DNA of 64,000 nt from Actinernus sp. WN-2022 (taxonomy: Eukaryota; Cnidaria; Anthozoa; Actiniaria; Actinernidae), in the NCBI GenBank assembly GCA_030867875.1, contig JAOWCC010001589.1, positions 148,711,745-148,775,744 on the forward strand, in the 5' to 3' direction. The notes under the pieces are model-generated. The model worked only from the letters and a program-made list of their open reading frames with translations, ran no database searches and was not told where the DNA came from. Positions 1,367-56,645 of the stretch are shown piece after piece (position 1 is the stretch's first letter; each line of letters starts with the position of its first letter). Both the position numbers and the translations under genes were made by a program.

Positions 1367-1922
1367 TAGATCGCCGATGAAGGTCTAACTTCAACAGACG
1401 ATGAAACACTTTAAAGTGCAAGTAGCGCCATAAAACAACATGAACTCTTTTTCCCCCAATTTTTTCCCCTGATATACTTCAGTTGTCTCACTTTTTTCAG
1501 AAATTAAACTAGAATTAAACGCTACCCGAATTGCGGGATTGATTCATCTTGTGATATCACAATGGAAACCTACGGGATTTTATTGTACTAGTTTTCTCTA
1601 GGGAGGGAGTTGATTCATCTTATGACAACACAGGATCCATGAAAAGTAACCAAAATTAGGGATTAAATGCCAGAAATTTACAAATTTTGCAAGATTAATA
1701 CCTTATTGCGAGAAGCAAACACAATAGTACAATATAATTTTTTGACATGATACTTACACTTTAATTTGGATTCCCTGAAAAATCAGATAGTCCTGGAATG
1801 TTTTTAGCTCAGGGTGCTGCAGGGTCCCAGAGGTACACATGCATCCTTGTGTAGTTGTCGAGCCTTGACCGTCTCCCCTCTTAAATCACGATATCACACC
1901 CCTTTCTCTAGCTGGATCGCCG

Positions 1923-10466: not shown

Positions 10467-11339
10467 CTATAATGATAAACTATAATGATCTGGCAGACGA
10501 GTCCAACCAGTAATTGGCGCTGAAGGTTCTGATAGAATGAGAGCTCTTAATGGTTGAACTGAGACTGTTATAAAACTTAGCTGCTGAATAGGCAAAGGAT
10601 CTATAACCAGATTTAGAGGATATTTTAACCATATGGAGATTAGACCTATTGCGAGTATTGTAATTATGGACATCAAACATTTAAAGACAGTAAGACATTT
10701 ATGAAAGTGCCATCGATCAAGTAAGGGGACCCAACCAAGCTCTCTGAATAACTGCTCTGTGCGTTCTTCTCGGATTTTCCTCCGGAGTATGATGCGCGCT
10801 CCTCTCTTCTGTAACCTCAGGAGTCTATCAAGGTTAATTTTATCCGCATTAGACCAGATTACATCACAGTATTCATACAGCGGCTGAATGAGAGTTCCAT
10901 GCAGAAGCTTACAAGTGTCAATATTAAGATATTTCCGGATCCTCCCAAGGAGGTTAAGTCTACGAGATATTTTAGAAGCAATGACATCAATATGGTCATG
11001 CCAGTTCATTGTAGCATCGAAAGACAAACCTAGATACTTAACAGTCTCTGGTAGTTCTAATAGTGTTCCTGATAATGACAAAGAAGGCTTCTGTGATCTT
11101 GCTAAACGTTGATTAGAACCAAATAACATAACTTTAGTTTTAGTACAATTTACAATTAATTCGTTATCAGTAAACCATCTACTAAGAGCACTAAGTTCAT
11201 CCTGAAGTACAGATTGTATAATCTGAACATCCTTATCGGCAAAAAAGAGAGCAGTATCATCGGCATATATTACTACCTTACAATGGTGGACATTATGTGG
11301 TAGATCATTGATGAAAATGATAAATAGTAATGGCCCCAA
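10467..11339 (-). pseudogene. LINE reverse transcriptase, C-terminal part
   Basis: The frame begins GPLLFIIFINDLP and carries the catalytic YADDTALFF box, then KYLGLSFDATMNWHDHI and the LQKRGARI block, all standard for the C-terminal half of LINE RT. Near 10680 the real frame moves to the one reading VHNYNTRNRSNLH and AAKFYNSL, another frameshift. Two frameshifts in one copy indicate decay. Confidence 0.75.
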
Positions 11340-13873: not shown

Positions 13874-13883
13874 GGTTGACCAG

Positions 13884-14289
13884 TTGATGTTGCAAATGCT
13901 AATGCCAATATTACACAGTCTACCCCATTAATCTGTTGCTGAACAGATTGCACTTCAGTTGTAATGGAGTTACTATCTTTGCAGTGTACAAGGGTTGCAA
14001 TCTGTTGTGTGTGTGTGGTGTCACGTTACTGTATATGCTATCATACAGCTGTACTTTGCTATCAGTATTACAGCATAGGTTGGAAACACATATCCAGTGG
14101 AATCCTCCAGTGTATAGGACTTGAATAAATTCAGAGGTCATATGATCTAACTGTCATATTTCTCCAAGGCTTGTTGACATGAAGCCGTCAATCAAGGGGA
14201 ATTGGTGTCTTAGAAGATTCTGAAATACCATGATGTGTCTGTCATCCAGCACCCCATTCCCAGTTATTGTACCTTTGTCTTTAGACATT
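13884..14289 (-). pseudogene. Ulp1-like cysteine protease relic of the Ginger-like element
   Basis: Minus-strand reading gives VLDDRHIMVFQNLLRHQFPL, then FIQVLYTGGFHWICVSN (catalytic His in FHW), VQLYDSIY (catalytic Asp), and in a shifted frame VQQQINGVDC (Gln and catalytic Cys). This order matches Ulp1/C48-type peptidases. A TGA lies in the middle, the Gly after the Cys is changed, and the reading ends at the LINE inserted at 13875. It follows the integrase and GPY/F parts on the same strand. Confidence 0.55.
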
Positions 14290-21305: not shown

Positions 21306-24300
21306 CTAATAGCAATCTTTGACATAACGTTTTAAGGAAGATTTAAAGGCTTTTTTAGAGGTATGTGCTTTAGATTGATCAGGAATGGAATTCCATAATT
21401 TTGGGCCACAAAATCTAAGACTAAACTTGCCATAATTAGTGCGGATTATTGGGATGTAGAAAGAAGACTTAGAAGCTAATCTTGTGTTGTGATTATGGAC
21501 ATTTGAAATTGGTACAAAGAAATCATTAAAGGCAGTTGGAACATTAGAACTATGAAAGTCAAACATGAACAATGCAGTATGTATATAGACTAAATCTAGA
21601 AATTTTAAAATGCTTAGTTTTTTAAACAAAGGATTTGTGTGGGCATCATATGCCGAAAAAGTCATGATGCGCAGAGACTTTTTTTGCATCACAATTAGAT
21701 TATTTAGAGTAAGTATTGCCCCAAGCTACGAGACCATAAGTAAGAAAAGGATATATTATTGAATAATATAACATAATTAATATGCCTAAAGGAACAAAGT
21801 GACGCAATTTTGAAAGAATCCCAATTCCCCGAGAGACTTTACCAGAAACTTCACGAGCATGGCATTTCCAATTTAAGTTGGCATCAATAAAAATACCAAG
21901 ATATTTAATACAAGGTTTACACTGTAATTCTTTATTATTTATTGAAAGTTTAATAGCATGTTTTCTTTTATTGACAGTGTGAAATACAACATAATTAGAT
22001 TTCTCAATATTTAAAGATAGTTTATTAGCATTTAGCCAACGTTTAACATTTTTTAATTCAGTATTAGCAATGCAATCCAAATTAGAAAGGTTTTTATCAG
22101 CTATGAACAGGTTAGAATCGTCTGCAAATAAATGAAACTTAAATATTTTAGAGCATAGGCTGAAGTCATTTACATACATGAGGAATAATAGAGGGCCTAG
22201 AACAGACACTTGGGGAACTCCACAAGATATCTGTCTATAACCAGAAACAGTGTTGCCAATTGATACGATTTGCTTTCTGTTAGATAAGTAAGAGCTAAAC
22301 CACTTGTTGGGTAGTCCACTTATTCCGTAATGTTCAAGTTTTTTAATGAGAATTTTATGGTTGACAGTATCGAATGCTTTACTAAAGTCAAGGAATATTC
22401 CACAGGAAAACTGGCCATTTTCAATGGCTTTTTGGATTCTATCAATTATCAGTAGGATGGCATGTAATGTTGAGTGCTTAGAACGAAAGCCAAATTGGCA
22501 GTCCGAAATTATATTGTGTTTGTTTAAGAAGGCTATAATTCTATTATACATAAGCTTTTCTAAGGTCTTATTAAAGACAGAAAGAAGAGATATGGGTCTA
22601 TAATTAGACAATAAGGTTCTTGAGCCTTTCTTAAAAACGGGAATTACACGAGCACTTTTTAGACATTCAGGTACTACACCCATTGCAAATGAAAGATTAA
22701 AAAGAGATTCTAGTGGTTTGGAAATTAGTACCTTTAAATTTTTTTAAATGGGTACTGGTATACTATAAGGTCCAGTAGCTTTGTTAATGGACAATCTATC
22801 AATTTCTAACTCAATTTCGTCGGAGGTACATGGGAAGAGAAAAAAACTATTAGGTAAAGAATACTTGAGATAATCCATGGGGGACTTTACAGCTGAAGGT
22901 ATAGACTTAGAAAGGTTTTCCCCAATGTCAGCAAAATAATCATTGAAGGAATTTGCTATGCTTTTAGGATCGGTTAGCACTTTTTTGTTATGAAGTATGA
23001 TTTTAGAGAGTAAGAGCATATGTTGAGACTTGTTGGTAACAATACGCTTAACTCCTTTCCATATATTCTTTATGCTATTTGTATGTTGTGTAAAGTACTC
23101 ATTAAAAATTTTTTTTTTGCTAATTAAAGTTAATGCTTTTAGTTTATTCCTGTAGAGTTTGAATTTGCTGTGATAGAACTGCTGCTTTGTTTTAATGCAC
23201 TTCTTAAACAGTTTATTTTTTATATCTATTGAGGTTTTTATAGCTCGAGTTATCCATGGCTTAGATTTCAATTTCATTTCTTTGTGTGACAGTTGTTTTA
23301 ACGGAACATGTTTATCTACTATTTGAGATGTTTTAGCATAAAAATTATTAAACATATCATCAATATTGATATCATCACTAAATATATCAGTCCAGTTAAT
23401 TGATCTGAAGTCTTCTATAAGGTCATTTTCATTTAAGTTAGAAAAATCTCTTTTAAATACCTTAGATTTTCTTGCAATAGGACACATTTTATTAATAATA
23501 GCAAAATTAGGTAAATGATCAGTGAGATCATACATAATATTGCCACTAATAGTATAGTGTTCAAGGGAATTAAAGAAAATATTATCAATAAGAGTAGCTG
23601 AGTGTTGTGTGATTCTTGTTGGGTGAGTTATTAGTGGTAGGAATGAGTAGGAACTTAATGTGTTTAAGTACTCCTCAGTAAGAGGATGAGAATCATAATT
23701 TATGAGATTAATGTTAAAGTCGCCCATAATTAAGCAATATTTCTGTTCTTTACTAACTTGGTCAAGAATTTTATAAAAGTCAGCTAGGAAAGTCTCCAAG
23801 GGTGTATTTGGATGTCTATAAAACACAGAACATAAAATATTTTTCTCTTTGGGATTATCAACTTCAATCCAAATAGATTCAAACTCGTTATTACAGGCTC
23901 CCAGATCATCTCTCAAAGAAAAGTTCAAATGATTATTGATATACATACCAACACCACCAGCATGTGAGTTGCTTGATTGAGATATAAAAGAATATCCTGG
24001 TATAGATAAGTTAGATAATATATCCTTCCCTTTCATGAATTTGATTTCTGAAAGCCCAATAATGGAGAAATTATGGCATAAATCAGTTAACATATTATAA
24101 AGGCTGTCATGATTAGCTTGAAGGCTTCGAATATTAGAATGGATAATGGAGAAACTGTCCTTACAATTAGAGATTTCTAAATTATCATGGAAGCTATGCA
24201 CACTATAATAAGCAAAATTGGTTCTCTGAGGTATGTTAACATCAATATCAAAGTCATTTAAGTGAGGAAAATCACTAACAGAAGTTAATAAATCAATACT

Positions 24301-24624
24301 AGCATGGCTTAGGAGAAGATCTGAAATTGTTTTTGAACACCCACAATTAGTATTTGAATTGAAAGACAATTCCAGGAGTATGGAATTATCTATAGATGCA
24401 AACGGAAATATATGGGCTCTACAGGCCAAGCAAAACCAAAGATCTCCAGTTCTAGAGTAATATCTGTAATCCCTAGTTGATAAGCCACTGCATTTACGAT
24501 GAAGCCAATAAAAACAGTTGTCGCATTCAATAGCTTGACAATTGTCCTTGACTATTTTGTCACAAATAGGACAAGTAGCTGTCATTAAGTAGCTAGTCAA
24601 AGGAAAGTACAGAATCAATATCAA
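21306..24624 (-). pseudogene. LINE ORF2: PHD finger, endonuclease, reverse transcriptase
   Basis: The N-terminus has a PHD-like finger (CPICDKIV, CDNCFYWLHRKC, WFCLAC). An APE-type endonuclease follows (HSNIRSLQAN, GLSEIKF, GDFNINL, TDHLPNF). A TAA at about 22742-22744 interrupts the frame, which resumes unchanged through RVIPVFKKGS, NYRPISLLSV, FLDFSKAFDTVNH and the catalytic LFADDSNLF. Near 21695 one extra A shifts the frame to the final part (MQKKSLRIMTFSA to GPKLWNSIPD). Only these two lesions were found, so the element is young. Confidence 0.8.
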
Positions 24625-29310: not shown

Positions 29311-29452
29311 TTTTTCTGTGGATCACGACTCGCCGTTGACTTTCCGAATGACGTTTGATTTACCGAAGATAATATTGGCGGATGTTTATGGTATGCGTCC
29401 AAGGTTTCGAAAATATTTGCTCATGCTGGAGAAGATTTATTGACGGTGCCCT

Positions 29453-30195
29453 TCTAATGCCAGACACTTCAAACCAGGACAGACATGGTAGTGGGTCCCT
29501 ATCGATCACTTAGTGGTGATGACGTAAGGACGTCATCGGTCACGTCATTTAAAGTACATGCCCATATCTCCCTCACTTCTAATGCCAATCACACTTCAAA
29601 CATGGCCTTACACGGTAGTGGGTCCCTATCGATCACTTAGTGGTGATGACGTAACGATGACGTCATCGGTCACGTGATTTTAAGTACATGCCCTTATATC
29701 CCTCGTTTCTAATGCCCGCCCGCTCAAACCTGGACAGACATGATAGTGGGTCCCTATCAATCACTTAGAGGTGATGACGTCATCGGTCACGTGATATTAA
29801 GTACATGTCCATATCTCCCTCATTTGTAATTCCAGCTGGCTCAAACCTGGACAGACATGATTGTGGGTTGCTATCAATCACTTAATGGCGATGACGTAAC
29901 CATGATGTCATCGCTCACATGATTTTAAGTACATGCCCATATCTCCCTCATTTGTAATGCCTACATGCTCAAACCTGACAGACATGGTAGTGGGTCCCTA
30001 TCATATCAAGCACCTAGTGGTGATGACGTAACGATGACGTCAGTGGTTACGTGATTTTAAGTACATGCCCATATCTTCCTCATTTCTAATGCCAGACAGT
30101 TCAAACTTGGACAGACATGGTAGTGGGTTGCCATCAATCACTTAGTGGTGATGAGGTAACGATGATGTCATTGGTCACATGATTTTTAGTATAAG
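29453..30195 (+). repeat. Minisatellite, six units of 118-132 bp
   Basis: Unit starts are at about 29453, 29578, 29708, 29825, 29953 and 30085. Each begins TCTAATGCC or a variant, has GTGGGTCCCTATC, GTGATGACGTAACGATGACG, a CACGTGAT or similar, and ends AAGTACATGCCCATATC. Units differ at several sites and by small indels. CRE and E-box-like sequences recur in register. No terminal structure of a transposon was seen. Confidence 0.8.
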
Positions 30196-30529
30196 CCAAA
30201 ATAGCTCGCTGACCATCCACGAGTTGACCTTAGGGGCCCTATGTTTCTGTTCCTCTCTAACAATTACTTGAATATCTGGAATCTCTATGTTAAACATACT
30301 TCTTATTAAACATGTTACAGTCAATCTCAAACTCAAAAACGTTATCCAGTAGGATATATGTAAATACTTTAAGGATAAATATTGGAATAATAATAATAAT
30401 AAACATTGATAGTGCGCAAGTTCCATACATAAATGCTCACATGCGCATAACAAGAACATACTAGTTACTAACTGATAGTTACCAACTTATAAACTTATTG
30501 GTAACGATCAGCTATTCCTAGCTATAAGT

Positions 30530-34361: not shown

Positions 34362-34365
34362 CTGA

Positions 34366-34686
34366 GACACCTGAGAAATTTAAAAATTTGTCAAGAACCA
34401 ACTTTCCTTCAATGTTCACAAATTTACATAACATATGAAATCAATTGCATTGTAATCAAAGTACCTGCAGGTATTACATAAAGAAAATGTGTTGGTAAAT
34501 AATAGTCATGTGTTGGCTGATTATACTGACATACTACCCCACCTTTGTTGATTACCTGGCAAAACAAGTTATGTACCTGGTTACTTTCAAAGCTAATGAA
34601 ACCATTTTAGTCTGACAGATATCCTAGTGCTTAGTACTATTACACTAATTAACTTAGTACTATTACACTAACTATTAATGATGGTA
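34366..34686. repeat. Direct repeat A (copy 1)
   Basis: This intronic 321-base segment, from GACACCTGAGAAATTT to TTAATGATGGTA, reappears with few changes at 38010-38328. It marks the left side of a tandem segmental duplication. Confidence 0.9.
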
Positions 34687-34999
34687 ATAAGACTGAGTGG
34701 AGTGCAATTTGGTCTGTAATCATACAAGTGGTGACAAAATCGCATGACTGCGTAGCATATGATCAGCATATAAATGCCTTCTGAAATACTGTATTTTAAT
34801 TGGCTGATGTATTTTGGTCCTGTTTTTTTATTGGTTGAGCAAGATAGTGCAATTACAGACACAGAATGATGCAATTTGGGCTGCATGTTAGATAACTGAT
34901 AAGGTTAATTGTGTATTTCCCTCTCCAAATAGAGAATATTGTTGTATTGTATTGTAATTTCGTTTGTAATTGCATCATTCTAAGCAATCAAATTGCAGG

Positions 35000-35157
35000 A
35001 AAGAATATGATGTAGAGTGGTATGCTGTAGTGCTATGTGTGCACGCCCTACGAGGGAAAGAGAAAAAATCTCTGACCCAAGTGGGACTCGAACCCAACGA
35101 CCTCCAGGTTGCATGTCTGGCGCTCTACCAACTGAGCTATCAAGTCAGATGAGAGCA
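35000..35157 (-). mobile_element. tRNA-derived SINE or tRNA-like relic, copy 1
   Basis: On the minus strand a tRNA-like head reads TAGCTCAGTTGGTAGAGCGC (A box) and GGGTTCGAGTCCCA (B box). The anticodon loop is CATGCAA: position 33 is A instead of U, so it is not a good tRNA gene. The attached non-tRNA sequence (GAATATGATGTAGAGTGG on the plus strand) is repeated at 35252-35354, which supports a SINE. Confidence 0.55.
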
Positions 35158-35251
35158 ATCGTGGGTATTGGTGCGTTTTATGGTCACGGCGATTATATAT
35201 GTATATGTAGTTATGATATGAAATCATGTTTGCCGCGTAGCACTAGTAGGT

Positions 35252-35354
35252 GTAAAGAATATGATGTAAAGTGGTTTGCTGTAGTGCTATGTGTGCACGC
35301 CCTACGAGGGAAAGAGAAAAAATCTCTGACCCAAGTGGGACTCAAACCCAATTG
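35252..35354 (-). mobile_element. tRNA-derived SINE, truncated copy 2
   Basis: The block from AGAATATGATGTAAAGTGG to CCAAGTGGGACTCAAACCCA matches 35000-35094 at nearly every base. It stops inside the B box, so the tRNA head is cut. Confidence 0.6.
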
Positions 35355-35561
35355 CAGGAAACACTAGTAATTTCAAATGGATATAATTATGATAGTATCA
35401 ACCCCAAAATGTAAAATCTGAAATATAAAAAAAATGTATAAATTCACAATGCCCGTAAAATATTGTAATATTTTGCTTATAGCAGCCAGTGGTTTGGGAT
35501 AAAGTAGGTAGTAGAAAGCTGCTGGTAACTCCCTTATACTGAAAGCCCTGTTTATACTTAC

Positions 35562-35734
35562 CAGAAGCTGACGTTTTTCTGGCTGTCCTAAGGTCCCATC
35601 AAGTGCCTGGAATTCCTAAAGGGAGCTGCATTGTTCTACATGGATATCAGAGTCTGCACTCTCATACTTTTTACCAACTTGTTGTAATGTGTTCCGTATT
35701 TCCGTTAGCAAGTGCAATGTCCTTTTCTGGAATT
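35562..35734 (-). pseudogene. DUF4806-like gene, exon 5
   Basis: The exon, with acceptor ctctgtttag and donor gtaagt, reads FQKRTLHLLTEIRNTLQQVG, then DSDIHVEQCSSL, a TAG, and EFQALDGTLGQPEKRQLL. The pattern of a leading FQ-x-x-L-LT-IR helix and an EFxxLD block is typical of the region before DUF4806. It begins with two bases that complete a codon left by exon 4 and ends in phase 0 to match exon 6. The in-frame TAG suggests the gene is broken or the base is wrong. Confidence 0.55.
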
Positions 35735-36198
35735 CTAAACAGAGAGGCAATAAGAATATTATTTAAAATAGTAACAAACCACTGTACCTGCAGTATTTTA
35801 CAGTCATTTGCATCTTAAGTGTGAACACACAAGACAAAAGCATGTTTTAGCTGGTGTATGTTTACATTACAATATTAGAAACAAAGGGGAATTAATTCTG
35901 AGATGTACCCAAAATTAAAACCATGCAAAGTTTTGAACCACAGCACAGTTACAATTTTATTGTTCCCCTATGTTTTTAAAAGTGACAGGTTCTTCTAACT
36001 TCTATGACTTCATCAATCAATAACAAAATCAGGGCTCGAAATTAAAATAAAGTACTTGTTGACTAGCTGATTGCAAATTTATCACAAAAAAGGTTAATAT
36101 CCATGTGTTTTGAGGCTGATGAAGATATTTTAGTTGCAAACAACAGTATTTTGCTAATTTTTGCACAATCTAGAGCCCCGAAAACATAGCTTTGCATT

Positions 36199-38009
36199 TC
36201 ATAGATACTGTACGTACTTGCTTCAGACATTGGAAAAATATCTACCGACTGGTCCCTGGCGGAGTTTGAGCGACTTCTCTTTGGTGAGGAGGTACGACGT
36301 GTGCTTGTTGATAGTGATGGTGAGTGACGGGAGGAATGACTGTGTGTGCTTCTTGTTGGCGATGGTGAGGGTGAGCAATGTCTACTTGTGGATGGTATGG
36401 GTGAGTGTTATCTTCTTGTTGGCAATGGTGAGGGTGAGCAATATCTACTTGTGGATGGTATGGGTGAGTGACATCTTGTTGGCAATGGTGAGGGTGAGCG
36501 ATGTCTACTTGTGGATGGTATGGGTGAGTGACATCTTGTTGGCAATGGTGAGGGTGAACGATGTCTAATTGTGGGTGATGTGGGTGAGTGATATCTTCCT
36601 GTTGGCAATGGTGAGGGTGAGCGATGTCTACTTGTGAGTGGCAAGGGCGAGTGATGGGATGATGATTCAGTTGATGCCTGTGTGATCTTTCCATGCCTTG
36701 AGGTCCGTTGTGGAGGATCTGGCAATACAATTATTCCACCTAGAGAAATATAAATCAGAAGTTGATACTCACTACAGTGTTCAAGCTAGGCCTAAACAGA
36801 AGGCACTGTGCCCTCTTGGTTAAAGTGCCCTGTCATTCTCTGAAATTAGTGAACACAAATAATTGTCTCAGTCTTTAATTAGTCAGTGGCATAATGCATT
36901 GTTTTAATCTGACAAAGTTCATGTTGTAAGGTATATTTTTGGGGGGCTAGCTAGAACTTTGTCTCTTAACCCAATGACTTCTGCCCAGTTAATGTACTGT
37001 TCCAGCCTCGTCACTGGGGATTCTGAAAGTTTAATGAACAAAACACAGAGCCCAAGCTGTTGAGTATGTTTTGGTTTGAAATTTGTGCCTGGTTTAATTA
37101 TTTTGGGACACTGCTTCACTTCTCAGTTTCATACTCTGAAGCATTGTAGTCTTACCACAAAGCTTAAAAATAATCTAAAAACAACATGAAAACAGAGTAA
37201 AACAAAATTAAACCGCAACATATAAACCATATTTTTATCGATGCTGTTATAGCATGCATTGTACATACTTGAGCATGTAGATTGCTTATTGGGCCTTTCC
37301 TCTTCAATTTCCGACTGCTCGGTATCTCCAAAGGATTCTAAAAGCAACAATCCATACGTTTTAAAAACAGGTAACATACACTGTACCTGTTCCATGCGAG
37401 GTCTAAGCTATAAGTTATATTGATTCTAATTTTATGCCATTTCAGAGCTCAAAATAGAAAAAAATAATTGTCACATTTTTTGGGCAGGGCAAATACATTC
37501 CCATGCGCATTTGTTCCATACCACAATTTGAAATTTGTGTTAACTAATAATTATACAGTCATTTCAAATAATGGTTTCATTTACATAACACCATTTTACC
37601 ACAGTCTCAGTGGCACTTTACAATTCAGTTACATCAAGTCAGTTAATGTTATTAACTTCTATAGTTGACCAGCCATTATTTAAAGCTGTACAATAGATTT
37701 AGTCAATACCTGTAATGTAGTTTTCATATCTTTTCCTTTTCACTTTTCTCCTAGCTTCTAAATCTTCCTCCTCGTCACTGAACTCAGCTGTGGTCGTTTC
37801 ATTTAAGTCTTCACACTCTTTTTTATTCTCTAAAAAAATTAACATACACAAAGTTAGTACTATTTTTTTTTCTGGTTCCACTAAAATACAGAGTGAGAAC
37901 AGATGCCACCCCCATCAACCAGAGTTTAACTGAACCAAAGCAACTGATTACCACTGATTCAAGTAGATGGAGGCTTTTTGTGGGAGTTACAAGATTTTCA
38001 TTTCCTTGT
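36199..38009. repeat. Direct repeat B (copy 1)
   Basis: An 1811-base segment holding exons 2-4 of the DUF4806-like gene. It is nearly identical to 43009-44738 apart from point changes and small indels. Copy 1 continues directly into A copy 2 at 38010. Confidence 0.9.
36218..37829 (-). pseudogene. DUF4806-like gene, exons 2-4, copy 1
   Basis: Exon 2 (37710-37829) reads ENKKECEDLNETTTAEFSDE and a basic stretch RRKVKRKRYENYIT. Exon 3 (37269-37337) reads SFGDTEQSEIEEERPNKQST. Exon 4 (36218-36718) is a Ser/Pro/Arg-rich repeat region (SPSPLPTRCHSP units) ending SARDQSVDIFPMSEA at a good donor (gtacgt). All phases agree with exons 1 and 5. Exon 4 has a TAA in one repeat (about 36408), where copy 2 has TAT. 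A second frame rich in HPHH also stays open, but its phases do not fit. Confidence 0.55.
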
Positions 38010-38328
38010 GACACCTGAGAAATTTAAAAATTTGTCAAGAACCAACTTTCCTTCAATGTTCACAAATTTACATAACATATGAAATCAATTGCATTGTAAT
38101 CAAAGTAACTGCAGGTATTACATAAAGAAAATGTGTTGGTGAATAATAGTCATGTGTTGGCTGGTTATACTGACATACTACCCCACCTTTGTTGATTACC
38201 TGGCAAAACAAGTTATGTACCTGGTTACTTTCAAAGCTAATGAAACCATTTTAGTCTGACAGATATCCTAGTGCTTAGTACTATTACACTAATTAACTTA
38301 GTACTATTACACTAACTATTAATGATGG
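38010..38328. repeat. Direct repeat A (copy 2)
   Basis: A 319-base copy of 34366-34686, joined directly to the end of B copy 1 with about two bases of shared sequence. It ends at ATGGTA, where unrelated sequence of the 4.7-kb block begins. Confidence 0.9.
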
Positions 38329-38340
38329 TAGTAGTAAGGG

Positions 38341-38645
38341 GGGTCACTATAGACCATATACCCTCTCCTGATTGGTCGAGAGCAAATCTGTGACGTCACA
38401 GGTTTGTGTGACGTCACAAGCCCCGCCTCCTCAGTTATAGACCATAGGCAGGCTGCTGATTGGCTGCCGCTATTATAGACCAAATACAGGCTCGGGATTG
38501 GCCGGGATTTATAGACCAAATACAGGCTCGTGATTGGTCGGGATTTATAGACCAAATATAGGCTCGGGATTGGCCGGGATTATAGATCAAATCCAGGCCG
38601 GGGATTGGCGAACCGGGGAACTATCCGGGACGTATAAAAAAGTAA
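38341..38645 (+). promoter_or_regulatory. Enhancer-promoter with two CREs, five 36-bp repeats and TATA box
   Basis: Two CREs (TGACGTCA at 38391-38398 and 38409-38416) precede a GC box (GCCCCGCCTCC, about 38420). Five repeats starting at 38436, 38474, 38510, 38546 and 38581 follow. Each has TATAGACCAAATACAGGCTC or a variant and a CCAAT box in reverse (ATTGG). A TATAAAA lies at 38633-38639, about 35 bases before the ATG at 38674. The periodicity and factor sites look like a viral-type enhancer. Confidence 0.65.
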
Positions 38646-38673
38646 CCCTCCCTTGCAAATTTCAGTGTGAACG

Positions 38674-39231
38674 ATGCCCCCTACTTGCTTTTGTGGGTGT
38701 TACGCCAAAGTCGTAAAAGGATTGGCCGGGACGCCAGAGTGTGTGTACAAGTGTCGACAAACGGCCAACTACAAGTCGAAACCCCAAGTTTTACCGTGTA
38801 GTTTTTATTTTACGGAGCAAGAACTTCCTTTGGTGAAAGCGGTTATTCCGTACGGAACTTTGTATAACACGTTTCCAAAGTGTGGCCACAATTTGTGGAT
38901 GAAAGTTGGCATAAGCCGAAGCGAGAAAAATCCGAACCGCGTGTTCTTCACGTGCACGGCCCCGGCGCCCAATCCGAAGTGTGAGTGGCCTCTTGGATTT
39001 ATGTGGGCTGACCCTACCGCACAACCTGTCGTAATTGCGGACGGACCCTCACCCCCCAAGAAAGCCCAATTCTATGCTTCGCCATGGACGTCACAGGCCC
39101 CCCAAGGTCCGCCACCCGTCGCTTGGACCAGTCCCCACGCCACTATGCCCTTTACGGTTCCACCCGCGGAGATGCCACAGGGGACCCCCACAGGGGACCC
39201 CCACCGGGGACACCCCTGGGGGTACCCCTAG
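38674..39231 (+). CDS. GRF-type zinc finger protein with proline-rich tail
   Basis: A 185-residue ORF starts 35 bases after a TATA box. Residues 5-27 hold a Cys cluster (CFCGC, PECVYKC). Residues 70-112 match a GRF zinc finger: C70-G-H72, NPNRVFFTC (C94), NPKCEW (C103) and FMWADP. GRF fingers bind single-stranded DNA in topoisomerase 3, NEIL3 and APE2-type proteins. The tail from about 120 is Pro/Gly-rich and overlaps two other open frames, so the real C-terminus may come from splicing or a frameshift. It is the first gene of the left transcription unit of the 4.7-kb block. Confidence 0.65.
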   Translation: MPPTCFCGCYAKVVKGLAGTPECVYKCRQTANYKSKPQVLPCSFYFTEQELPLVKAVIPYGTLYNTFPKCGHNLWMKVGISRSEKNPNRVFFTCTAPAPNPKCEWPLGFMWADPTAQPVVIADGPSPPKKAQFYASPWTSQAPQGPPPVAWTSPHATMPFTVPPAEMPQGTPTGDPHRGHPWGYP

Positions 39232-39349
39232 AGACTACACCGACACCCCTGATTCCCTACGGTACAGTGGCGGTGGGTCCCCCGCCATCCCCACCCCCTA
39301 TAAACATCCCGACAACACACCGACCACCCTACTACCAGTGACAAGCAGT

Positions 39350-39697
39350 ATGACGACAGAGAGTCAAGAAGACCTAGATTTGGAGGACATGTCGGATAAC
39401 CGGGATTTACCCACCCTAAAAGCCGGATGGGCTTTGTATAAAACGCTCTACGCCATGGCGTGCATCCGGGAAAGCATGAGAGAACGTGGTCGGAACTGCG
39501 AGGGGTGTATTTATAGTACCCAGGGACAACAACTCGAACAGTACCATACCTGTTTATGGACTTTCTCCGAGGAAAGTTTTACCGCGTGTGTGACAATCAC
39601 ATATTACCCTAGAGGCTCTACGGGCTACGGGTCTACGGGCTTTGCAGAGTTTGCACCTCACGGGGATTATTGCTCCCCTTACTTATACCGTGTTTGA
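39350..39697 (+). CDS. Small acidic/Cys-containing ORF of the 4.7-kb block
   Basis: From an ATG at 39350 the frame reads MTTESQEDLDLEDMSDN, then WALYKTLYAMACIRESM and CEGCIYSTQ, ending near YHTCLW and a Phe/Tyr-rich part. The C-x2-C with a later H-x-C suggests one metal site. The same frame is open upstream to 39035 and overlaps the GRF ORF, so it could be its spliced extension. I do not recognise a family. It overlaps the next ORF by 56 bases. Confidence 0.4.
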   Translation: MTTESQEDLDLEDMSDNRDLPTLKAGWALYKTLYAMACIRESMRERGRNCEGCIYSTQGQQLEQYHTCLWTFSEESFTACVTITYYPRGSTGYGSTGFAEFAPHGDYCSPYLYRV

Positions 39698-39905
39698 GCG
39701 GCTGCAAAAATTAAAGGAGGTCGAAATTTACAAGTACTATAAACTGTATTATTTTGAAGAATGCGAAGACCCCCTCATTACTTACAAGAATCGAATTTGG
39801 CACGCGTTGGGACAAGCTTTGATTTATGAAGACAATCCCCAGGCCTATATGGAAACCGGAGTGTTGACCCTTTTGGCTTTATTTGAGTCAGCCAATTATA
39901 TGTAA
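39642..39905 (+). CDS. Third small plus-strand ORF of the 4.7-kb block
   Basis: An 87-residue frame with KEVEIYKYYKLYYFEECED and ALIYEDNPQAYMETGVL, rich in Tyr and Glu, ending SANYM. No domain is recognised. A small intron (donor near 39582, acceptor tttgcag near 39640) could join it to the ORF before it. A polyadenylation signal AATAAA lies just after, at about 39919. Confidence 0.4.
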   Translation: MQSLHLTGIIAPLTYTVFERLQKLKEVEIYKYYKLYYFEECEDPLITYKNRIWHALGQALIYEDNPQAYMETGVLTLLALFESANYM

Positions 39906-40015
39906 GAATCTTGAGACAATAAAAGAGACATGTGTTGGGTATCAACAACTTTGTTTCGTAAAAATTCTTAAACAAGCAACAGAATACAATTTACAAAAAT
40001 AAAATAATAGTTACA

Positions 40016-40230
40016 AGGGGCCCTATTTCGGGGCCCCACAGAGAGAGAGAGAGAACAAACGTTTCTATTTGATTTGGGCAAATCGCCCTATTATTGATTA
40101 AAAAAGTATTGACATTGGTTGGGCCATCGCCCTATTATATTTGAAAAATACGAAAGTATAATGATTAGGCTATCGCCCTATTATTTCTGAAATTACAAGA
40201 ATGAGCAAATCGCTCTAATGTTTGAAAATA
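40016..40230. repeat. GC hairpin and four ATCGCCCTATTAT repeats
   Basis: GGGGCCC at 40017-40023 pairs with GGGCCCC at 40031-40037. A short (AG)n run follows, then four repeats of ATCGCCCTATTAT or a variant at about 40078, 40125, 40169 and 40206, spaced 37-47 bases. They sit between the convergent plus and minus units, so they may mark transcript ends. The function is unknown. Confidence 0.6.
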
Positions 40231-40274
40231 TGGAAAAATAGAAAAGAGGAAATTGCCATGGAGAAAAATGTTAA

Positions 40275-40541
40275 TCAAATCATATGATAGTGGTTAGCGT
40301 AACATTTTTGTAGAGGCAAAGTTATAATACCAAAAGTATCTAAATGGTTAAACAGGACAACGGTGCCTGCCCTTAGAAAAAAGGAATGTTCAATTTGACT
40401 TAAACAACAGTAGCAGAGAGGAACTCTGTTATATTTTAGGGACCTTGAAACGAACTTAATGAAGCACGGTGTGCACACCTGCTCCCCGCAACACGGTAGT
40501 GGTGGCAATTGTTTGCCAGGGAGGTCATCACATATAAGACA
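40275..40541 (-). CDS. Alternative 3' exon 2: RING-like zinc module
   Basis: A splice acceptor (tctttttttcttttttag) opens this phase-0 exon. It reads CLICDDLPGKQLPPLPCCGE and CTPCF, later CYCCLSQIEHSFFLRAG, and stops at 40275. The spacing C-x2-C, CCG, C-x2-C, C-x2-C is RING-like with the His replaced or shifted. It is a paralogue of the exon at 40617-40892 and uses the same phase, so both can follow the same upstream exons. Its acceptor lies 76 bases downstream of the stop of the other exon. Confidence 0.55.
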   Translation of the reverse strand, partial: CLICDDLPGKQLPPLPCCGEQVCTPCFIKFVSRSLKYNRVPLCYCCLSQIEHSFFLRAGTVVLFNHLDTFGIITLPLQKCYANHYHMI

Positions 40542-40616
40542 CTAAAAAAGAAAAAAAGATTGGCTAGGATAATACATTTTTCTCCATGGCAATAGAAATC
40601 CCCTACTTCCGAGACT

Positions 40617-40892
40617 TCAGTGGAAAACATATCGGTAATAATCTTTGAATTTATGTGTTAAGGGCAAATGAAAGCTTGCCAAAGTGGCACAATGCCTAAA
40701 AATAACAACACTGCCAGAGCGAACAAAAAACGAATGATGCATTTTTAAGAAGCATATTGTACAGCGAGGATGGACATCGTCCCGTAAGGCCTCAGCAATT
40801 ATTAAAATGAAGCATGATTTACAGAATGTGCTCCCACAGCAGGGCATGGGCGGCAAATTAATTCCTTCGATATTCCCGTCACACCACAAACA
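40617..40892 (-). CDS. Alternative 3' exon 1: RING-like zinc module
   Basis: After an acceptor ending tttttatag the frame reads CLWCDGNIEGINLPPMPCCG, FCKSCF, CTICFLKMHHSFFVRSG and stops at 40617. The layout equals the second alternative exon: Cys pair, LPPxPCCG, C-x2-CF, C-x2-CF, HSFFxRxG. The two come from a local duplication. RING-like modules often recruit ubiquitin ligase partners, and the function here is inferred only. Confidence 0.55.
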   Translation of the reverse strand, partial: CLWCDGNIEGINLPPMPCCGSTFCKSCFILIIAEALRDDVHPRCTICFLKMHHSFFVRSGSVVIFRHCATLASFHLPLTHKFKDYYRYVFH

Positions 40893-40899
40893 CTATAAA

Positions 40900-41380
40900 A
40901 AATAAAAAATAGAAAAATTATAAGGTAACATGAAAATACAACTTTTTCCACTGGAAGCGCCCCCAGCCATCCCAGATCGAGATAGACTGGGTGGTGGGGG
41001 CAACGGAAGTAGGCGAGTCCTCTCTTACAGTGCATCCTAACTATAGTTTGGTTGCAACGGCAATACTCGCACCACATAAAACCATATTCTGTGACGGGCT
41101 CCACATGCATGGCCGCATAAGGCCCAGTATGCCGCGAGAAATTCCTATTAAATTGCATTGTTTGTCCTGAATTCCCCCACGAATAATTTCCTCTGATCCC
41201 GGTAGACACATGCTTGAGCAAGAACAGGCTTGGATTAAATTGCGTCTGATGTTTCGCCTTCCTCCTATCGATTCTTTGTTGTACACAAACATATTCACCG
41301 ATCTTCACTAAAATTTCGGTTGGGAGTCCGATGTGCCTCAGCACCATCGCATGAGAATAAAAATGGTCTTTAACTTTAGT
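40900..41380 (-). CDS. Shared exon: F-box-like start and Cys-rich segment
   Basis: This exon follows acceptor ttttccccaaccag in phase 0. It reads GLPTEILVKIGEYVCVQQR, similar to an F-box-type LPxEIL helix, then FLLKHVSTGIRGNYSWG. A Cys/His cluster follows (WCEYCRCNQTIVRMHC, YFRCPHH), then GWLGALPVEK. The donor is uncertain: three phase-0 GT sites lie just after LPVEK. Any of them would splice in frame to either RING-like exon. The F-box resemblance is weak. Confidence 0.5.
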
Positions 41381-41473
41381 CTGGTTGGGGAAAAAACAAA
41401 AAATTAAAAATTAAAAAGAGGTACGACATGAATAATGCTTTAGAGTAATTTGTTTATGAAGAGGCGCTCTTAC

Positions 41474-41672
41474 CGAGAGCGGGGCAGGCCCCGAGAGGAC
41501 CTCCAAGAAAACCTATAAAAATTAATCAAATTATTGTTCGTCGGGGGATTTTGCCAATAAAAATTAACGGTACTGTTAAGCAGAGTCCGAACGCTACACA
41601 CTGTTTTTTAGGGGGACGGGACGGAGAAGAACTTACAGGATCCATGTTGATTACATCTACACCGTGAATATT
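41474..41672 (-). CDS. Short coding exons 1 and 2 of the minus-strand unit
   Basis: Exon 41637-41672 has the acceptor gttttttatag, a start codon at 41645 reading MDP, and donor gtaagt. Exon 41474-41512 (39 bases, phase 0) reads VFLEVLSGPAPLS between tttttatag and gtaagag. Both join in frame to the exon starting at 41380. Tiny exons and introns of this kind are common in compact viral units. Confidence 0.5.
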
Positions 41673-41739
41673 CTATAAAAAACAAAAACAAAAGGTTAGT
41701 GGTTGTGTCCCAAGATAAAAAACAATTCAGTAGGTCCGT

Positions 41740-41912
41740 ACTTCTCTCTCCCTGTGGGGCCCACGGTATGCCATCTCTTTAGTTTTGCTTGTTGTTCTTT
41801 AAGCTGTAGAAATAAAAAGGAAACCAAAGGAGAAAAGATTAGTACCAAAGCGTGTTGAATTTCAAGAGAGAATTTCGCGTACACTTACCTTCTTGAGTGG
41901 TTAGTGGCAAAG
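41740..41912 (-). other. 5' untranslated exons of the minus-strand unit
   Basis: A first exon at about 41889-41912 ends with the strong donor AAG followed by gtaagtg. A second begins at 41803 after acceptor tatttctacag. Neither has the start codon used by the coding exons. The donor of the second exon is uncertain. Confidence 0.4.
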
Positions 41913-41914
41913 GT

Positions 41915-41996
41915 GCCGAGCTTCATTCAGCCCTCATCATTTATAGATCATATACTGTACCCTGATTGGTGCACTTTCTCGGGTTTTGATTGGTCC
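41915..41996 (-). promoter_or_regulatory. Promoter of the minus-strand unit
   Basis: On the minus strand two ACCAATCA boxes (41987-41994 and 41963-41970) precede a TATA box CTATAAAT (41939-41946). The predicted start is about 30 bases downstream, near 41912, next to the first exon. The short motif around TATAGATCATATAC also resembles the left enhancer repeats. Confidence 0.6.
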
Positions 41997-42000
41997 GTTT

Positions 42001-42660
42001 TACACAACGTGCTCTATGAGTGGTGGACTTTCGATCCGGTTTTGACGTTTTTTGGCAAACTTTTTTTCTGAGCCCCTAAGAAGCTCAAATTCTACCCTAA
42101 AACATCGGGGAAATTTGCTATTTTTTTCTGGAGGTCTTCTTCCCAACCCCATCTTAGTTTTCCACGTTTTTTCCCCTTCATTCGACCCGGGAAAGGTGTT
42201 CTTGGAGACCCGAAACCTGTATGACCTTTGGGAAACCAGTTGAAAGTTACCTGTTTTTGATTGACCAATCACAAGGCGTTACGTAGTTTGTTTACGCGCC
42301 TTTTTCTTACTCCGGGTCAACCTTGTTTACCAACCTTTTTGTGGGAAGTCCAAGAAGCTCAAATTCATCCTGAAAACATCGGTGAAATTTTCTAAAATTT
42401 TCTGCAGGACTTCTTCTCACGGCCCTCTTAGTTCCCCCCCTTTTTTGTTTGTTTTTCCCTTTCACACTTTCCGGGAAAGGGATCCTTGACCGTCTGAAAA
42501 CCCAACGCATCCCTCGGGAAACCAGTTGAATGTTGGCGCGAACCTAAAAGGAGCCTAAACCCTCCAATCACGAGCCGAGGCTTATACGCAGTCAATATTT
42601 GCGCGCCTTTTTCTTACTCCGGGTCAACTTTGTTTACTTTGTTTCGGAGGGGCGGTTTTG
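42001..42660. repeat. Diverged tandem repeats of about 300 bp between divergent promoters
   Basis: Segments beginning near 42001, 42301 and 42606 share ordered blocks: CTTACTCCGGGTCAAC and TTGTTTAC (the last two), AAGAAGCTCAAATTC, AAACATCGG, and GGGAAACCAGTTGAA (the first two). A CCAATCA box recurs near the end of units. The array lies between the minus promoter at 41.95 kb and the plus promoter at 42.9 kb and looks like an intergenic control region. Confidence 0.55.
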
Positions 42661-42851
42661 GGAAGGCTTTTTCGCTAGTTTCCTTGGCGCGAAAGAGAGG
42701 GCGGTTTGAAGAGGACTGTAGAGGGAGGTCTCCCGGTGGAGGGCCCACAAAAATTCGGAAGAATAAGCGGTGGGGTGGGGGTGTTTGGGTGAATTCTTTC
42801 ACAAAAAATAATAAAGAGAGTCGAGCTAGAACCAAAAACGGATCGAAATCC

Positions 42852-43008
42852 ACCAATCATGAGGGGTGTTAATTCTAAGGGAACCAATCACAGACCGAGA
42901 AAAGTGCACCAATCAGAGAGAAGTGAAAAAAATATAAAAGCGAGTGACGGTTTTTGGTTTGGATTAGTTTCACCACGATGTCCACCTTAAACTACCTACC
43001 TTAAACTA
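42852..43008 (+). promoter_or_regulatory. Third promoter with truncated ORF at the right junction
   Basis: Three ACCAATCA boxes at 42852, 42882 and 42908 precede TATAAAAG at 42933-42940. An ATG at 42978 in good context (CACCACGATG) opens a frame of eight codons (MSTLNYLP) that stops just before the B repeat starts at 43009. The gene that this promoter once served has been cut away at the junction. Confidence 0.55.
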
Positions 43009-44738
43009 TCATAGATACTGTACGTATTTGCTTCAGACATTGGAAAAATATCTGCCGACTGGTCCCTGGCAGAGTTTGAGCGACTTCTCTTTGGTGAGGA
43101 AGTACGACGTGTGCTTGTTGATAGTGATGGTGAGTGACGGGAGGAATGACTGTGTGTGCTTCTTGTTGGCAATGGTGAGGGTGAGCGATTGCTACTTGTG
43201 GGTGGCGTGGGTAAGTGATATCTTCTTGTTGGCAATGGTGAGGGTGAGCGATATCTACTTGTGGATGATATGGGTGAGTGACATCTTGTTGGCAATGGTG
43301 AGGGTGAGCGATGTCTAATTGTGGGTGAGTGATATCTTCCTGTTGGCAATGGTGAGGGTGAGCAATGTCTACTTGTGAGTGGCAAGGGCGAGTGATGGGA
43401 TGATGATTCAATTGATGCCTGTGTGATCTTTCCATGCCTTGAGGTCCGTTGTGGAGGATCTGGCAATACAATTATTTCACCTAGAGAAATATAAATCAGA
43501 AGTTGATACTCACTACAGTGTTCAAGCTAGGCCTAAACAGAGGGCACTGTGCCCTCTTGGTTAAAGTGCCCTGTCATTCTCTGAAATTAGTGAACACAAA
43601 TAATTGTCTCAGTCTTGAATTAGTCTGTGGCATAATGCATTGTTTTAATCTGACAAAGTTCATGTTGTAAGGTATATTTTTGGGGGCTAGCTAGAACTTT
43701 GTCTCTTAACCCAATGACTTCTGCCCAGTTAATGTACTGTTCCAGCCTCGTCACTGGGGATTCTGAAAGTTTAATGAACAAAACACAGAGCCCAAGCTGT
43801 TGAGTATGTTTTGGTTTGAAATGTTTGCCTGGTTTAATTATTTTGGGACACTGCTTCACTTCTCAGTTTCATACTCTGAAGCATTGTAGTCTTACCACAA
43901 AGCTTAAAAATAATCTAAAAACAACATGAAAACAGAGTAAAACAAAATTAAACCGCAACATATAAACCATATTTTTATCGATGCTGTTATAGCATGCATT
44001 GTACATACTTGAGCATGTAGATTGCTTATTGGGCCTTTCCTCTTCAATTTCCGACTGCTCGGTATCTCCAAAGGATTCTAAAAGCAACAATCCATACGTT
44101 TTAAAAACGTAACATACACTGTACCTGTTCCATGCGAGGTCTAAGCTGTAAGTTATATTGATTCTAATTTTATGCCATTTCAGAGCTCAAAATTTAAAAA
44201 AAAAATGGTCACACAATTTTTTGGGCAGGGCAAATACATTCCCATGCGCATTTGTTCCATACCACAATTTGAAATTTGTGTAAACTAATAATTATACAGT
44301 CATTTCAAATAATGGTTTCATTTACATAACACCATTTTACCACAGTCTCAGTGGCACTTTACAATTCAGTTAGATCAAGTCAGTTAATGTTATTAACTTC
44401 TATAGTTGACCAGCCATTATTTAAAGTTGTACAATAGATTTAGTCAATACCTGTAATGTAGTTTTCGTATCTTTTCCTTTTCACTTTTCTCCTAGCTTCT
44501 AAATCTTCCTCCTCATCACTGAACTCAGCTGTGGTCGTCTTCACACTCTTTTTTATTCTCTAAAAATTTTAACATACACAAACTAATTTTTTTTCTGGTT
44601 CCACTAAAATACAGAGTGAGAACTGTCAGATGCCACCCCCATCAACCAGAGTTTAACTGAACCAAAGCAACTGATTACCACTGATTCAAGTAGATGGAGG
44701 CTTTTTGTGGGAGTTACAAGATTTTCATTTCCTTATGA
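43009..44738. repeat. Direct repeat B (copy 2)
   Basis: A 1730-base copy of 36199-38009. It begins abruptly after the 4.7-kb block at TCATAGATACTGTACG. It continues past the end of copy 1 into the upstream part of the DUF4806-like gene. Confidence 0.9.
43011..44559 (-). pseudogene. DUF4806-like gene, exons 2-4, copy 2
   Basis: Exon 2 (44451-44559) lacks 11 bases found in copy 1, which shifts the frame relative to exon 1. Exon 3 (44009-44077) is unchanged in reading. Exon 4 (from 43459 downward) keeps its Ser/Pro/Arg frame open through the site where copy 1 has TAA. Its 3' splice donor is lost: the gtacgt of copy 1 is atacgt here, and the frame runs a few codons into the 4.7-kb block. The copy is therefore dead in a different way from copy 1. 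Confidence 0.6.
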
Positions 44739-55439: not shown

Positions 55440-55589
55440 GATGCCACTCGAGTCTGATTTGGAACCTCCACGTCAAGCATTTCAGTCTGAGTTGCAACTT
55501 CAACATCGAGCACTTCAGTGTGAGTTGCAATTTCGACATCAAGCACTTCAGTCCGAGTTGCAACCTCTCTCGTTGAAACACTTCAGGAA
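55440..55589. repeat. Thirty-base tandem repeat, four units
   Basis: Units of about 30 bases carry CACTTCAGTC, GAGTTGCAAC and TTCAACATC in turn. On the minus strand they read LDVEVATQTE-like repeats, matching the TQTE words at the start of the transposase at 55590 and of the neighbouring gene. Confidence 0.6.
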
Positions 55590-56645
55590 ATGACCTCAAT
55601 GGATGTGGGATCACAGACTGAAGAATTTAGATTTGAGAGACCACAGTATCAGGAAGCTGAGACGCAGACAAATGAGTTCGAGTATATGTTTCGTTCTCCA
55701 AGATATCAAGCACCGAACAAAGAGTATTTTGACTCGGACGAGAAGGTGAGATTTTATACCGGTCTCCCATCGTTTCAAGTCCTCATGCTTGTCTATGAGC
55801 ATGTAGCCCCATTTGTCTCCCGCCGCTCTCAAAGTCTGGACAGTTTCCAGGAATTTGTCTTGGTACTCATGAAGTTGCGGCTTAATATGCCTTTTCGGGA
55901 TCTGGCTTATCGTTTTCTTGTATCAATGTCTACAATCTCGAGGATCTTCACAGCCTGGGTCATTGCCATGGATACACGATTGTCATGTTTTGTAAGATGG
56001 CCAGAACGAGAAGATCTGTATAGAACTATGCCAATGTGTTTCAGGTATACATTTGGTCGAAGTGTAACTGTCATCATAGACTGTTTTGAGGTCTTCATCG
56101 AAAAACCTTCAAATTTACTGGCCCGAGCACAAACATTCTCAAATTACAAACACCACAACACCATCAAGGTCCTGATTGGTATTACACCACAGGGCAGTAT
56201 TTCATATGTGTCTGAAGCTTGGGGTGGCCGCACTTCAGATAAATTCTTGACAGAGAACTGCGACTTTCTGGACAAACTTGTGCCTGGGGACACCGTAATG
56301 GCTGATCGGGGCTTCACAATTACTGAAAGTGTTGGCTTGAAGCAAGGGAAGATAGTCATCCCAGCATTCACCAGAGGGAAATCTCAGTTAGATCCCATTG
56401 ATGTTGAGAAGTCAAGAGGTATTGCCAATGTTAGGATCCATGTGGAGAGAGTTATAGGACTCCTGCGTAGGAAATACACATTTCTAGAAGGAATCATCCC
56501 AACAGACTATCTGGTTACTCGTGTCAAGGGTCACGAGTCGCAGGTACCTTTAATTGATAGAATCCTGAGGGTATGCTCTGCACTTGTAAATTTTTGTCCT
56601 CCAATTGTTCCATTTGAATATAATTTTTGTTCTTTATGGGCATAG
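55590..56645 (+). CDS. ISL2EU/Harbinger-like DDE transposase
   Basis: An intact 351-residue ORF. The N-terminus has SQTE and AETQTNE words. Residues about 58-130 are a helix-turn-helix ([29 protein letters not shown]). The catalytic core has D164 in [14 protein letters not shown]239 in VMADRGF and E286 in [15 protein letters not shown], the DDE triad of DDE_Tnp_4-type enzymes. [11 protein letters not shown] and GGRTSDKF are conserved blocks between them. It cuts and joins DNA in transposition (family knowledge). All three acidic residues are present, so it may be functional. It converges on the SWIM-YqaJ gene at 58136-60903, which could be its partner. Confidence 0.8.

Follow-up and report, generated by a model that had tools for sequence, protein, structure and literature searches.

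A truncated Maverick/adintovirus-type left end with a predicted, exon-shuffled opposing gene in Actinernus sp. WN-2022

Introduction

Is a compact, virus-like block lodged in a duplicated host locus a fragment of a virus, a new kind of mobile cassette or ordinary host DNA? The question is raised by 64,000 nucleotides of the sea anemone Actinernus sp. WN-2022 (assembly GCA_030867875.1, contig JAOWCC010001589.1, forward-strand positions 148,711,745 to 148,775,744), here called the window, in which an earlier model-made reading of the letters alone (the sequence-only reading) had singled out positions 38329-43008 as a partial, possibly endogenised block in the style of a viral early region. Here we report that this block is, as good as certainly, the left end of an endogenous, truncated virus of the Maverick/Polinton (adintovirus) type. 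It carries an opposing gene with three predicted alternative terminal exons, which form a cassette of divergent old alleles exchanged exon by exon among copies. We put the probability of this explanation as a whole at roughly 0.93.

Results

Sister copies continue into viral genes

To place the block we searched the host assembly (1.39 Gb, 1772 contigs) with positions 38329-43008 as the query. The 90 matches, merged by hand, fall in 35 places, which are spread over 21 contigs and include the window; as 35 of the 1456 candidates from a first look were scored, the copy count is a lower bound. Because two pairs that are near-identical even in their flanks (L009/L010, 99.7-99.8%; L012/L013, 99.9-100%) may each be one locus assembled twice, at least 33 of the places are distinct. 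Sister copies are 73-98% identical to the block over the matching pieces (the window itself, 100%). Wherever a sister has an intact left end, the match begins at window position 38329/38330, with flanking DNA that varies between copies, which identifies 38330 as the true terminus. Past 42998 the sisters share a common continuation, lying within an open reading frame (ORF) that starts MSTLNYL at 42979. Within this genome the block was not found as an ordinary host gene cluster.

The continuation leads into viral core genes, in keeping with the suggestion of the sequence-only reading to look for copies with more genes at the right end. We read these genes in the 10 kb rightward of each of four sisters (L021-L024), and they were found among the four jointly. 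Sister L022 holds the DNA polymerase PolB (PF03175, E 3.7e-26; frame interrupted), on which Pfam at E <= 0.1 gave nothing but PF03175, no OTU-specific search having been made. Sister L024 holds an integrase (rve, PF00665, E 9.5e-14) with a C-terminal chromodomain (Chromo, PF00385, E 1.1e-9) at residues 337-377 of its 382-aa ORF. An ATPase-like ORF (Pox_A32, E 4.3e-4) and a protease-like ORF (Peptidase_C5, E 0.0042) lie below the curated cut-offs, and for the latter the unrelated family TCF25 scored slightly better (0.0024). A 446-aa ORF, with five relatives (best E 9.7e-62), is probably the major capsid protein, judged by size and place; a sequence search of the PDB gave no relative for it, for PolB or for ORF1 of the block.

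Two sisters with both ends seen define the element. The copy on C235 (L003/L021) has the left end AGTAGTTAG and the right end CTAACTACT, 357-bp inverted repeats (96.4% identical) and CACTCT at both sides; the copy on C888 (L014/L026) has 319-bp inverted repeats (98.7%) and TACGCA at both sides. Both thus carry AGTAGT//ACTACT termini and a perfect 6-bp target-site duplication (TSD); in the window the left end only is present. At 13.0 and 15.2 kb, and internally deleted, without most or all of PolB, these two already speak against a small DNA virus, if a genome of a few kilobases is meant by that. Among vertebrate Mavericks, according to the portion of PMC8097293 drawn on here, the commonest ends are (AGT)2//(ACT)2, with 6-bp duplications and terminal inverted repeats (TIRs) of 46-1447 bp. 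An integrase chromodomain is given as an adintovirus trait in part of PMC11071296, and Polintons and adintoviruses are treated as largely synonymous in part of PMC10120064. The window copy holds none of the core genes, its viral DNA stopping at 42998 ahead of any of them; it is a fragment, not an element.

Further ORFs were seen in the sisters. In L022, the DNA after position 6413, the point where the sister copy on C1312 ceases to match L023, contains a 198-aa ORF (7218-7814, +) without a Pfam match. A very basic 127-aa ORF lies at L023 5195-5575 (-) and L022 5672-6055 (-), the latter without a Pfam match; its composition is like that of a viral core or DNA-condensing protein. The window itself holds a second, more distant Maverick/Polinton remnant at 926-1384 (-), a fragment without a Pfam match that aligns with the Cys-rich N-terminal region of PolB from the sisters (32% over 158 columns; E 1e-18 in a single comparison).

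The window copy lies in a tandem duplication and ends at a deletion scar

The block sits in the second half of a tandem duplication whose parts are as follows.

34363-34689, no strand: host repeat A, copy 1, in the undisturbed half of the duplication; 98.5% identical to 38007-38333
34690-36198, no strand: host segment X, present in copy 1 only and lost in copy 2; chance matches to the block only
36199-38011, no strand: host repeat B, copy 1; 92% identical to 43009-44738, a variable-number tandem repeat (VNTR) included
38007-38329, no strand: host repeat A, copy 2; ends in the six bases GATGGT (38324-38329), presumed to be the left half of the TSD
42999-43008, no strand: 10-bp filler at the deletion junction, a copy of 42985-42994
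43009-44738, no strand: host repeat B, copy 2, beginning TCATAG at 43009

Copy 1 is thus A-X-B (34363-38011) and copy 2 is A-block-B (38007-44738). The two A repeats differ at 4 of 322 sites, and the two B repeats are 96.4% identical outside the VNTR, gaps counted. Segment X and the block share matches at chance level only. In the first A repeat GATGGT is followed by AATAAG and in the second by the viral terminus AGTAGT, so that entry after GATGGT in copy 2 is the simplest account. The viral part of the block is therefore 38330-42998 (4.67 kb): the edges set by the A and B repeats are real and the left one is exactly the viral terminus, but the right viral edge lies at 42998 and not, as had been read, at 43008, the bases between being filler. 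The claimed difference in base composition held for GC content (0.446, against 0.33-0.44 in the other same-sized windows scanned, the highest of which overlap the block) but not for the observed/expected CpG ratio (0.84, within the 0.29-0.93 of the other windows), and the contrast with the surroundings is moderate.

These observations suggest a short history. An integrase-encoding, double-stranded DNA virus of the Maverick/Polinton (adintovirus) type would have integrated after GATGGT in the second half of an A-X-B/A-X-B duplication. A later deletion, starting within the acidic early ORF, would have taken away the remainder of the virus together with host segment X and stopped at B; it may have been healed with the 10-bp templated filler by end joining of the polymerase-theta type. 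Because one such deletion removes both the viral right part and X, the missing X needs no special replacement. What is left is the viral left end with the early region, a fossil that lacks the genes needed for replication or movement.

That the arrangement in the window, virus joined to B with X missing, is instead an assembly chimera is unlikely: near-identical tandem duplications are where assemblers err, but at the left junction the virus begins exactly where it does in the sisters, and the filler at the right junction copies its own neighbour. Templated filler is a signature of repair, and such a copy speaks for repair rather than for an overlap error.

As an observation on segment X itself, a tRNA match (35073-35146, -; 47.2 bits) marks a tRNA gene or a tRNA-derived short interspersed element; it overlaps a short duplicated segment (35000-35097 and 35254-35351, 97% identical).

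The remaining viral DNA is an early region with two opposing units

The viral part of the block holds the following features.

38330-38640, no strand: left TIR of the virus, beginning AGTAGT; inner end estimated from the sister repeats (319 and 357 bp)
38391-38416, +: two TGACGTCA sites, like the cAMP-response element (CRE), from motif counts
38435-38609, +: 36-bp CCAAT/TATAGAYCA repeats, enhancer-like, within the TIR
38633-38639, +: TATA box of the left early promoter, from a motif scan
38674-39231, +: ORF1, 185 aa in the window, with N-terminal CxC and GRF-like zinc ribbons and a Pro-rich tail whose frame is shortened in the window copy
39350-39905, +: ORF2 and ORF3, one 187-aa early protein with a CEGC..HxC motif in 10 sisters, split by a small indel in the window copy
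39918-39923, +: AATAAA poly(A) signal of the rightward unit
39930-41530, -: hypervariable, exon-shuffled cassette, delimited by identity profile, synonymous divergence and trees
40275-40541, -: terminal exon 6b, 88 aa, RING-like, Cys-rich
40617-40892, -: terminal exon 6a, 91 aa, RING-like
40971-41380, -: terminal exon 5 (conserved part), with its own stop in most sisters and a frame altered near the 3' end in the window
41637-41672, -: exon 3, start codon and MDP, with the phase-0 donor ATGGATCCT then GTAAGT, exact in 15 of 19 aligned copies
41889-41938, -: exon 1 of the opposing unit, with a provisional 5' end and the donor AAGAAG then GTAAGTG
41939-41947, -: TATA box (TCTATAAAT) of the opposing promoter; 16 of the 19 aligned copies keep it exactly
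42933-42939, +: TATA box of a third early promoter, from a motif scan
42979-42998, +: first codons (MSTLNYL) of the acidic ORF that continues in the sisters; viral DNA of the window ends here

The opposing unit, which the sequence-only reading had described as spliced with alternative 3' exons, is confirmed as predicted anatomy in the sister copies: a short MDP leader followed by three alternative terminal exons, all of whose acceptors (exons 5, 6a and 6b) are in phase 0 with the leader. Two of the 19 aligned copies, L017 and L018, end before the region of the opposing TATA box and donor. Cysteine conservation was counted on all 19 copies, with no row-picking pattern that required Cys. In exon 6a, eight cysteines in RING spacing (C1, C4, C18, C19, C24, C27, C44, C47) are kept in 17 of the 19, the other two being a near-identical pair without the first part of the exon; in exon 6b the first nine cysteines are kept in 15. 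Exons 6a and 6b of the window, about 40% identical to each other, are probably ubiquitin-ligase modules. An AlphaFold model of exon 5 alone reached a predicted local distance difference test score (pLDDT) of 33 and was left unused. Two further exon structures were rejected: splicing of exon 5 onto 6a is an artefact of the frame change near the end of the window exon 5, where most sisters stop, and exon 4 as a constant coding exon fails on its length, which in sisters is indivisible by three and unlike that in the window.

On the left, the TIR would double as an enhancer and promoter for a rightward unit of zinc-ribbon-like and 187-aa proteins. The reported 36-bp repeats and CREs were both recovered, the former by Tandem Repeats Finder at 38435-38609 and the latter as CRE-like sites. 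The block has two TGACGTCA sites (shuffle mean 0.0, maximum 1; but 0.43 per kb compared with 0.21 per kb over the remainder of the window) and seven of TATAGAYCA (shuffle mean 0.0, maximum 1; 0.02 per kb elsewhere in the window). Six of the seven lie in the left terminal repeat and the seventh at the opposing promoter, a link between the two units. Of the CCAAT/TATA promoters that had been claimed, the opposing TATA box is well conserved, but the counts in the block (20 CCAAT/ATTGG, shuffle mean 14.6, maximum 26; six TATA boxes, mean 1.6, maximum 7) do not exceed shuffles and were rejected as stand-alone evidence. Elsewhere, at 29452-30197, there are five to six tandem units of 117-132 bp, some of which contain TGACGTCA-like sites; we saw nothing that connects them with the virus block.

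The stop-to-stop frame of ORF1 is 213-232 aa in 12 of the 16 sisters holding it (L005 and L009 have longer fused frames, L010 is broken and L016 is cut). The label of GRF zinc finger given to ORF1 did not survive as more than a resemblance (PF06839, 12.9 bits against a cut-off of 25.9, E 0.12), although its Cys pattern looks like two zinc ribbons. ORF2 and ORF3 had been taken for overlapping small ORFs; the single frame in sisters identifies this as a break in the window copy. Lesions in the window copy affect the ORF1 tail, ORF2/3 and the end of exon 5; several other copies are damaged, and open frames exist in sisters. Scans of viral contigs with ORF1, ORF2, exon 5, exon 6a and the sister 446-aa ORF returned nothing useful, and phage records gave a single match, at E 0.04.

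The terminal exons are old alleles exchanged among copies

Identity along the block changes at the cassette. Left of 39.93 kb and right of 41.93 kb, 18 sisters are 90-100% and 89-100% identical to the window, respectively, mostly at least 94%, whereas from 39.93 to about 41.5 kb identity spans 64-100%; a shoulder of 87-100% then extends to 41.93 kb. Averaged over pairs of copies, identity is 97.3% for the left backbone (136 pairs) and 96.3% for the right (91 pairs), while exons 6b, 6a and 5 reach 81.0, 78.9 and 74.1% (171 pairs each). The mean proportion of synonymous differences (pS), compared between ORF1 and the exons in the same pairs of copies, is 0.064 versus 0.467 for 6a (45 pairs; cassette higher in 39), 0.070 versus 0.433 for 6b (28 pairs; higher in 24) and 0.085 versus 0.623 for exon 5 (10 pairs; higher in 9). 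For ORF2/3 against 6a, 6b and exon 5 the corresponding values are 0.042/0.453, 0.038/0.474 and 0.031/0.559. Within the same copies, the cassette exons thus exceed neighbouring ORFs in synonymous divergence by a factor of 6-18.

The exons are under purifying selection: the ratio of nonsynonymous to synonymous divergence (dN/dS) is 0.17 for 6a (15 of the 19 aligned copies), 0.12 for 6b (13 copies) and 0.08 for exon 5 (11 copies), the last value being rough because many exon 5 dS values were saturated. Outside the cassette it is 0.16 for ORF1 and 0.32 for ORF2/3 (10 copies each). Copies whose frames misfit the patterns used were excluded.

The alleles are moreover combined differently in different copies. 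Clustering of 18 copies at 90% identity gave seven, six and four groups for exons 5, 6a and 6b, with differing membership, and the best tree of each exon was rejected by the data of the others (approximately unbiased test, p 1.9e-60 to 0.014). Fifteen of 171 pairs are at least 94% identical in one exon and at most 80% in another. The window, for example, is like L011, L015 and L017 in 6a and 6b and not in 5, and like L012 in 5 and 6b and not in 6a. Because single pairs match in some exons only, exons and not merely whole genes have been exchanged; the other 156 pairs lack such a contrast, so that exchange is not required between every two copies. An exon-shuffled cassette of divergent old alleles is well supported.

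Could the opposing gene be so divergent because endogenous copies decayed or were loosely constrained, or because several lineages of the virus had integrated, each at its own time? Every copy is endogenous and many carry frame lesions, as this would predict, but pairwise identity of the backbones of these copies is 94-99.9%, most of the divergence is synonymous at the ratios given above (0.08-0.17), the 91-aa exon 6a keeps its eight cysteines in nearly every copy, and the 15 mosaic pairs stand against it; we consider this improbable, a shade more so than a chimera. More improbable again is gene conversion among host copies that homogenised the viral flanks after integration and spared the cassette. 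It likewise predicts conserved flanks around a variable island, but the copies are spread over 21 contigs, the island coincides with a gene, and the flanks keep a purifying signature in both ORF1 and ORF2/3, so that part at least of their differences arose while they were coding. The least probable, and very nearly dismissed, is the new kind of mobile cassette, a self-contained, non-autonomous 4.67-kb unit with two ends of its own spread by another element's machinery: many sister matches do end at one right coordinate, query 4670, but there the sisters share the next stretch, an ORF running into viral genes, and not varied host DNA, so that the common stop marks the breakpoint of the window copy only; in two sisters the true right terminus is reached 13-15 kb away from the left one, and a short two-ended element with degenerate TIRs is refuted by the same continuation.

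Evidence against a truncated viral left end

Several results weigh against the reading of a truncated Maverick/adintovirus-type left end with an exon-swapped opposing gene. None of nine block ORFs scanned exceeded the Pfam cut-off, no PHROGs family fell below E 0.011 for six of them, and the protein database held no relative of ORF1 or ORF2, the two block ORFs searched. Among the sister ORFs, those of 446, 471 and 875 aa, which include the capsid-like candidates, have no Pfam match. A third sister (L008/L025) does not show its right terminus or TIR at the predicted place, and the window copy lacks the right-hand TSD that would confirm its integration. For the opposing gene, splicing is predicted from sequence signals, and only 9 of 19 copies have the exon-1 donor in exact form. 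A single Cys of exon 6b is lost in L002 and in L012. The RING label comes from Cys spacing and a weak model of exon 6a (pLDDT 59), with which Foldseek found no match at E <= 0.001, and the GRF label depends on a sub-threshold match.

Other elements in the window

Two remnants of retrotransposons of the long interspersed element type lie at 10467-13927 and 21700-24624 (-), the former with RVT_1 and Exo_endo_phos, the latter with Exo_endo_phos and a weak PHD finger in its scanned part. At 55524-56645 (+) is an open DDE_Tnp_4 transposase (E 4.8e-49) with HTH_Tnp_4, which we take to be Harbinger-like. A 786-aa ORF at 58136-60496 (-) is likewise mobile-element-like: it carries a YqaJ recombinase domain (8.4e-14) and ends in a Ulp1-type protease part (3.4e-4).

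Discussion

Whether Mavericks/Polintons are infectious viruses or transposons only is a long-running question, and according to part of PMC8097293 no particles of theirs have been observed. Here the alleles of one gene greatly exceed the remainder of the element in age, remain under purifying selection and have been swapped one exon at a time. Circulating genomes that co-infect and recombine account for this most easily; such swapping between very old alleles is harder to explain in a quiet transposon than in a virus that circulates and recombines. Because such alleles fit co-infection best, the cassette offers a sequence test of a viral life style.

The opposing unit would splice its tiny MDP leader to one of the three terminal exons. 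In the circulating virus these exons may have served as host-interaction modules, their ancient alleles swapped by recombination; RING-like proteins without a match in Pfam or PHROGs are a likely point of contact with the host in such a virus. We lean slightly towards a fuller picture in which a Maverick/adintovirus-type virus carried a built-in diversity cassette, re-assorting ancient alleles of three Cys-rich terminal exons so that each virus presented a different set of host-targeting, ubiquitin-ligase-like proteins, and in which the endogenous copies preserve, as fossils, a sample of a virus population that circulated freely and recombined. Ligase function, contest with the host and circulation as a virus would all be parts of that picture.

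The element itself is of the known Maverick/adintovirus type; what is new is the early region with its exon-shuffled opposing gene. With Mavericks/Polintons and adintoviruses it shares AGTAGT//ACTACT ends, a TIR of a few hundred base pairs and a 6-bp TSD, as well as PolB, an rve integrase with a C-terminal chromodomain and accessory regions outside the core genes (parts of PMC8097293 and PMC11071296). Unlike them, the window copy comprises the left accessory or early region only, and its opposing gene has splice signals and three alternative terminal exons shuffled among copies. In vertebrate Mavericks counted as intact the ORFs are intronless, according to the portion of PMC8097293 used here, whose text mentions neither splicing nor a hypervariable region; among titles and abstract openings we found no hypervariable or spliced accessory cassette in Mavericks or adintoviruses.

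Exon 6a has the CxxC-CC-CxxC-CxxC spacing of RING-type ubiquitin ligases, and a structure-based second look returned RING domains. The pattern of variation recalls the E3 CR1 genes of human adenovirus D, where, in the part of PMC6141750 drawn on here, a variable gene block lies within an otherwise conserved genome, discrete allele classes are swapped by homologous recombination and E3 mRNAs with spliced leaders are described. The likeness is one of pattern; unlike the adenoviral genes, the block appears to encode Cys-rich, RING-like proteins whose modules are predicted alternative terminal exons of one gene.

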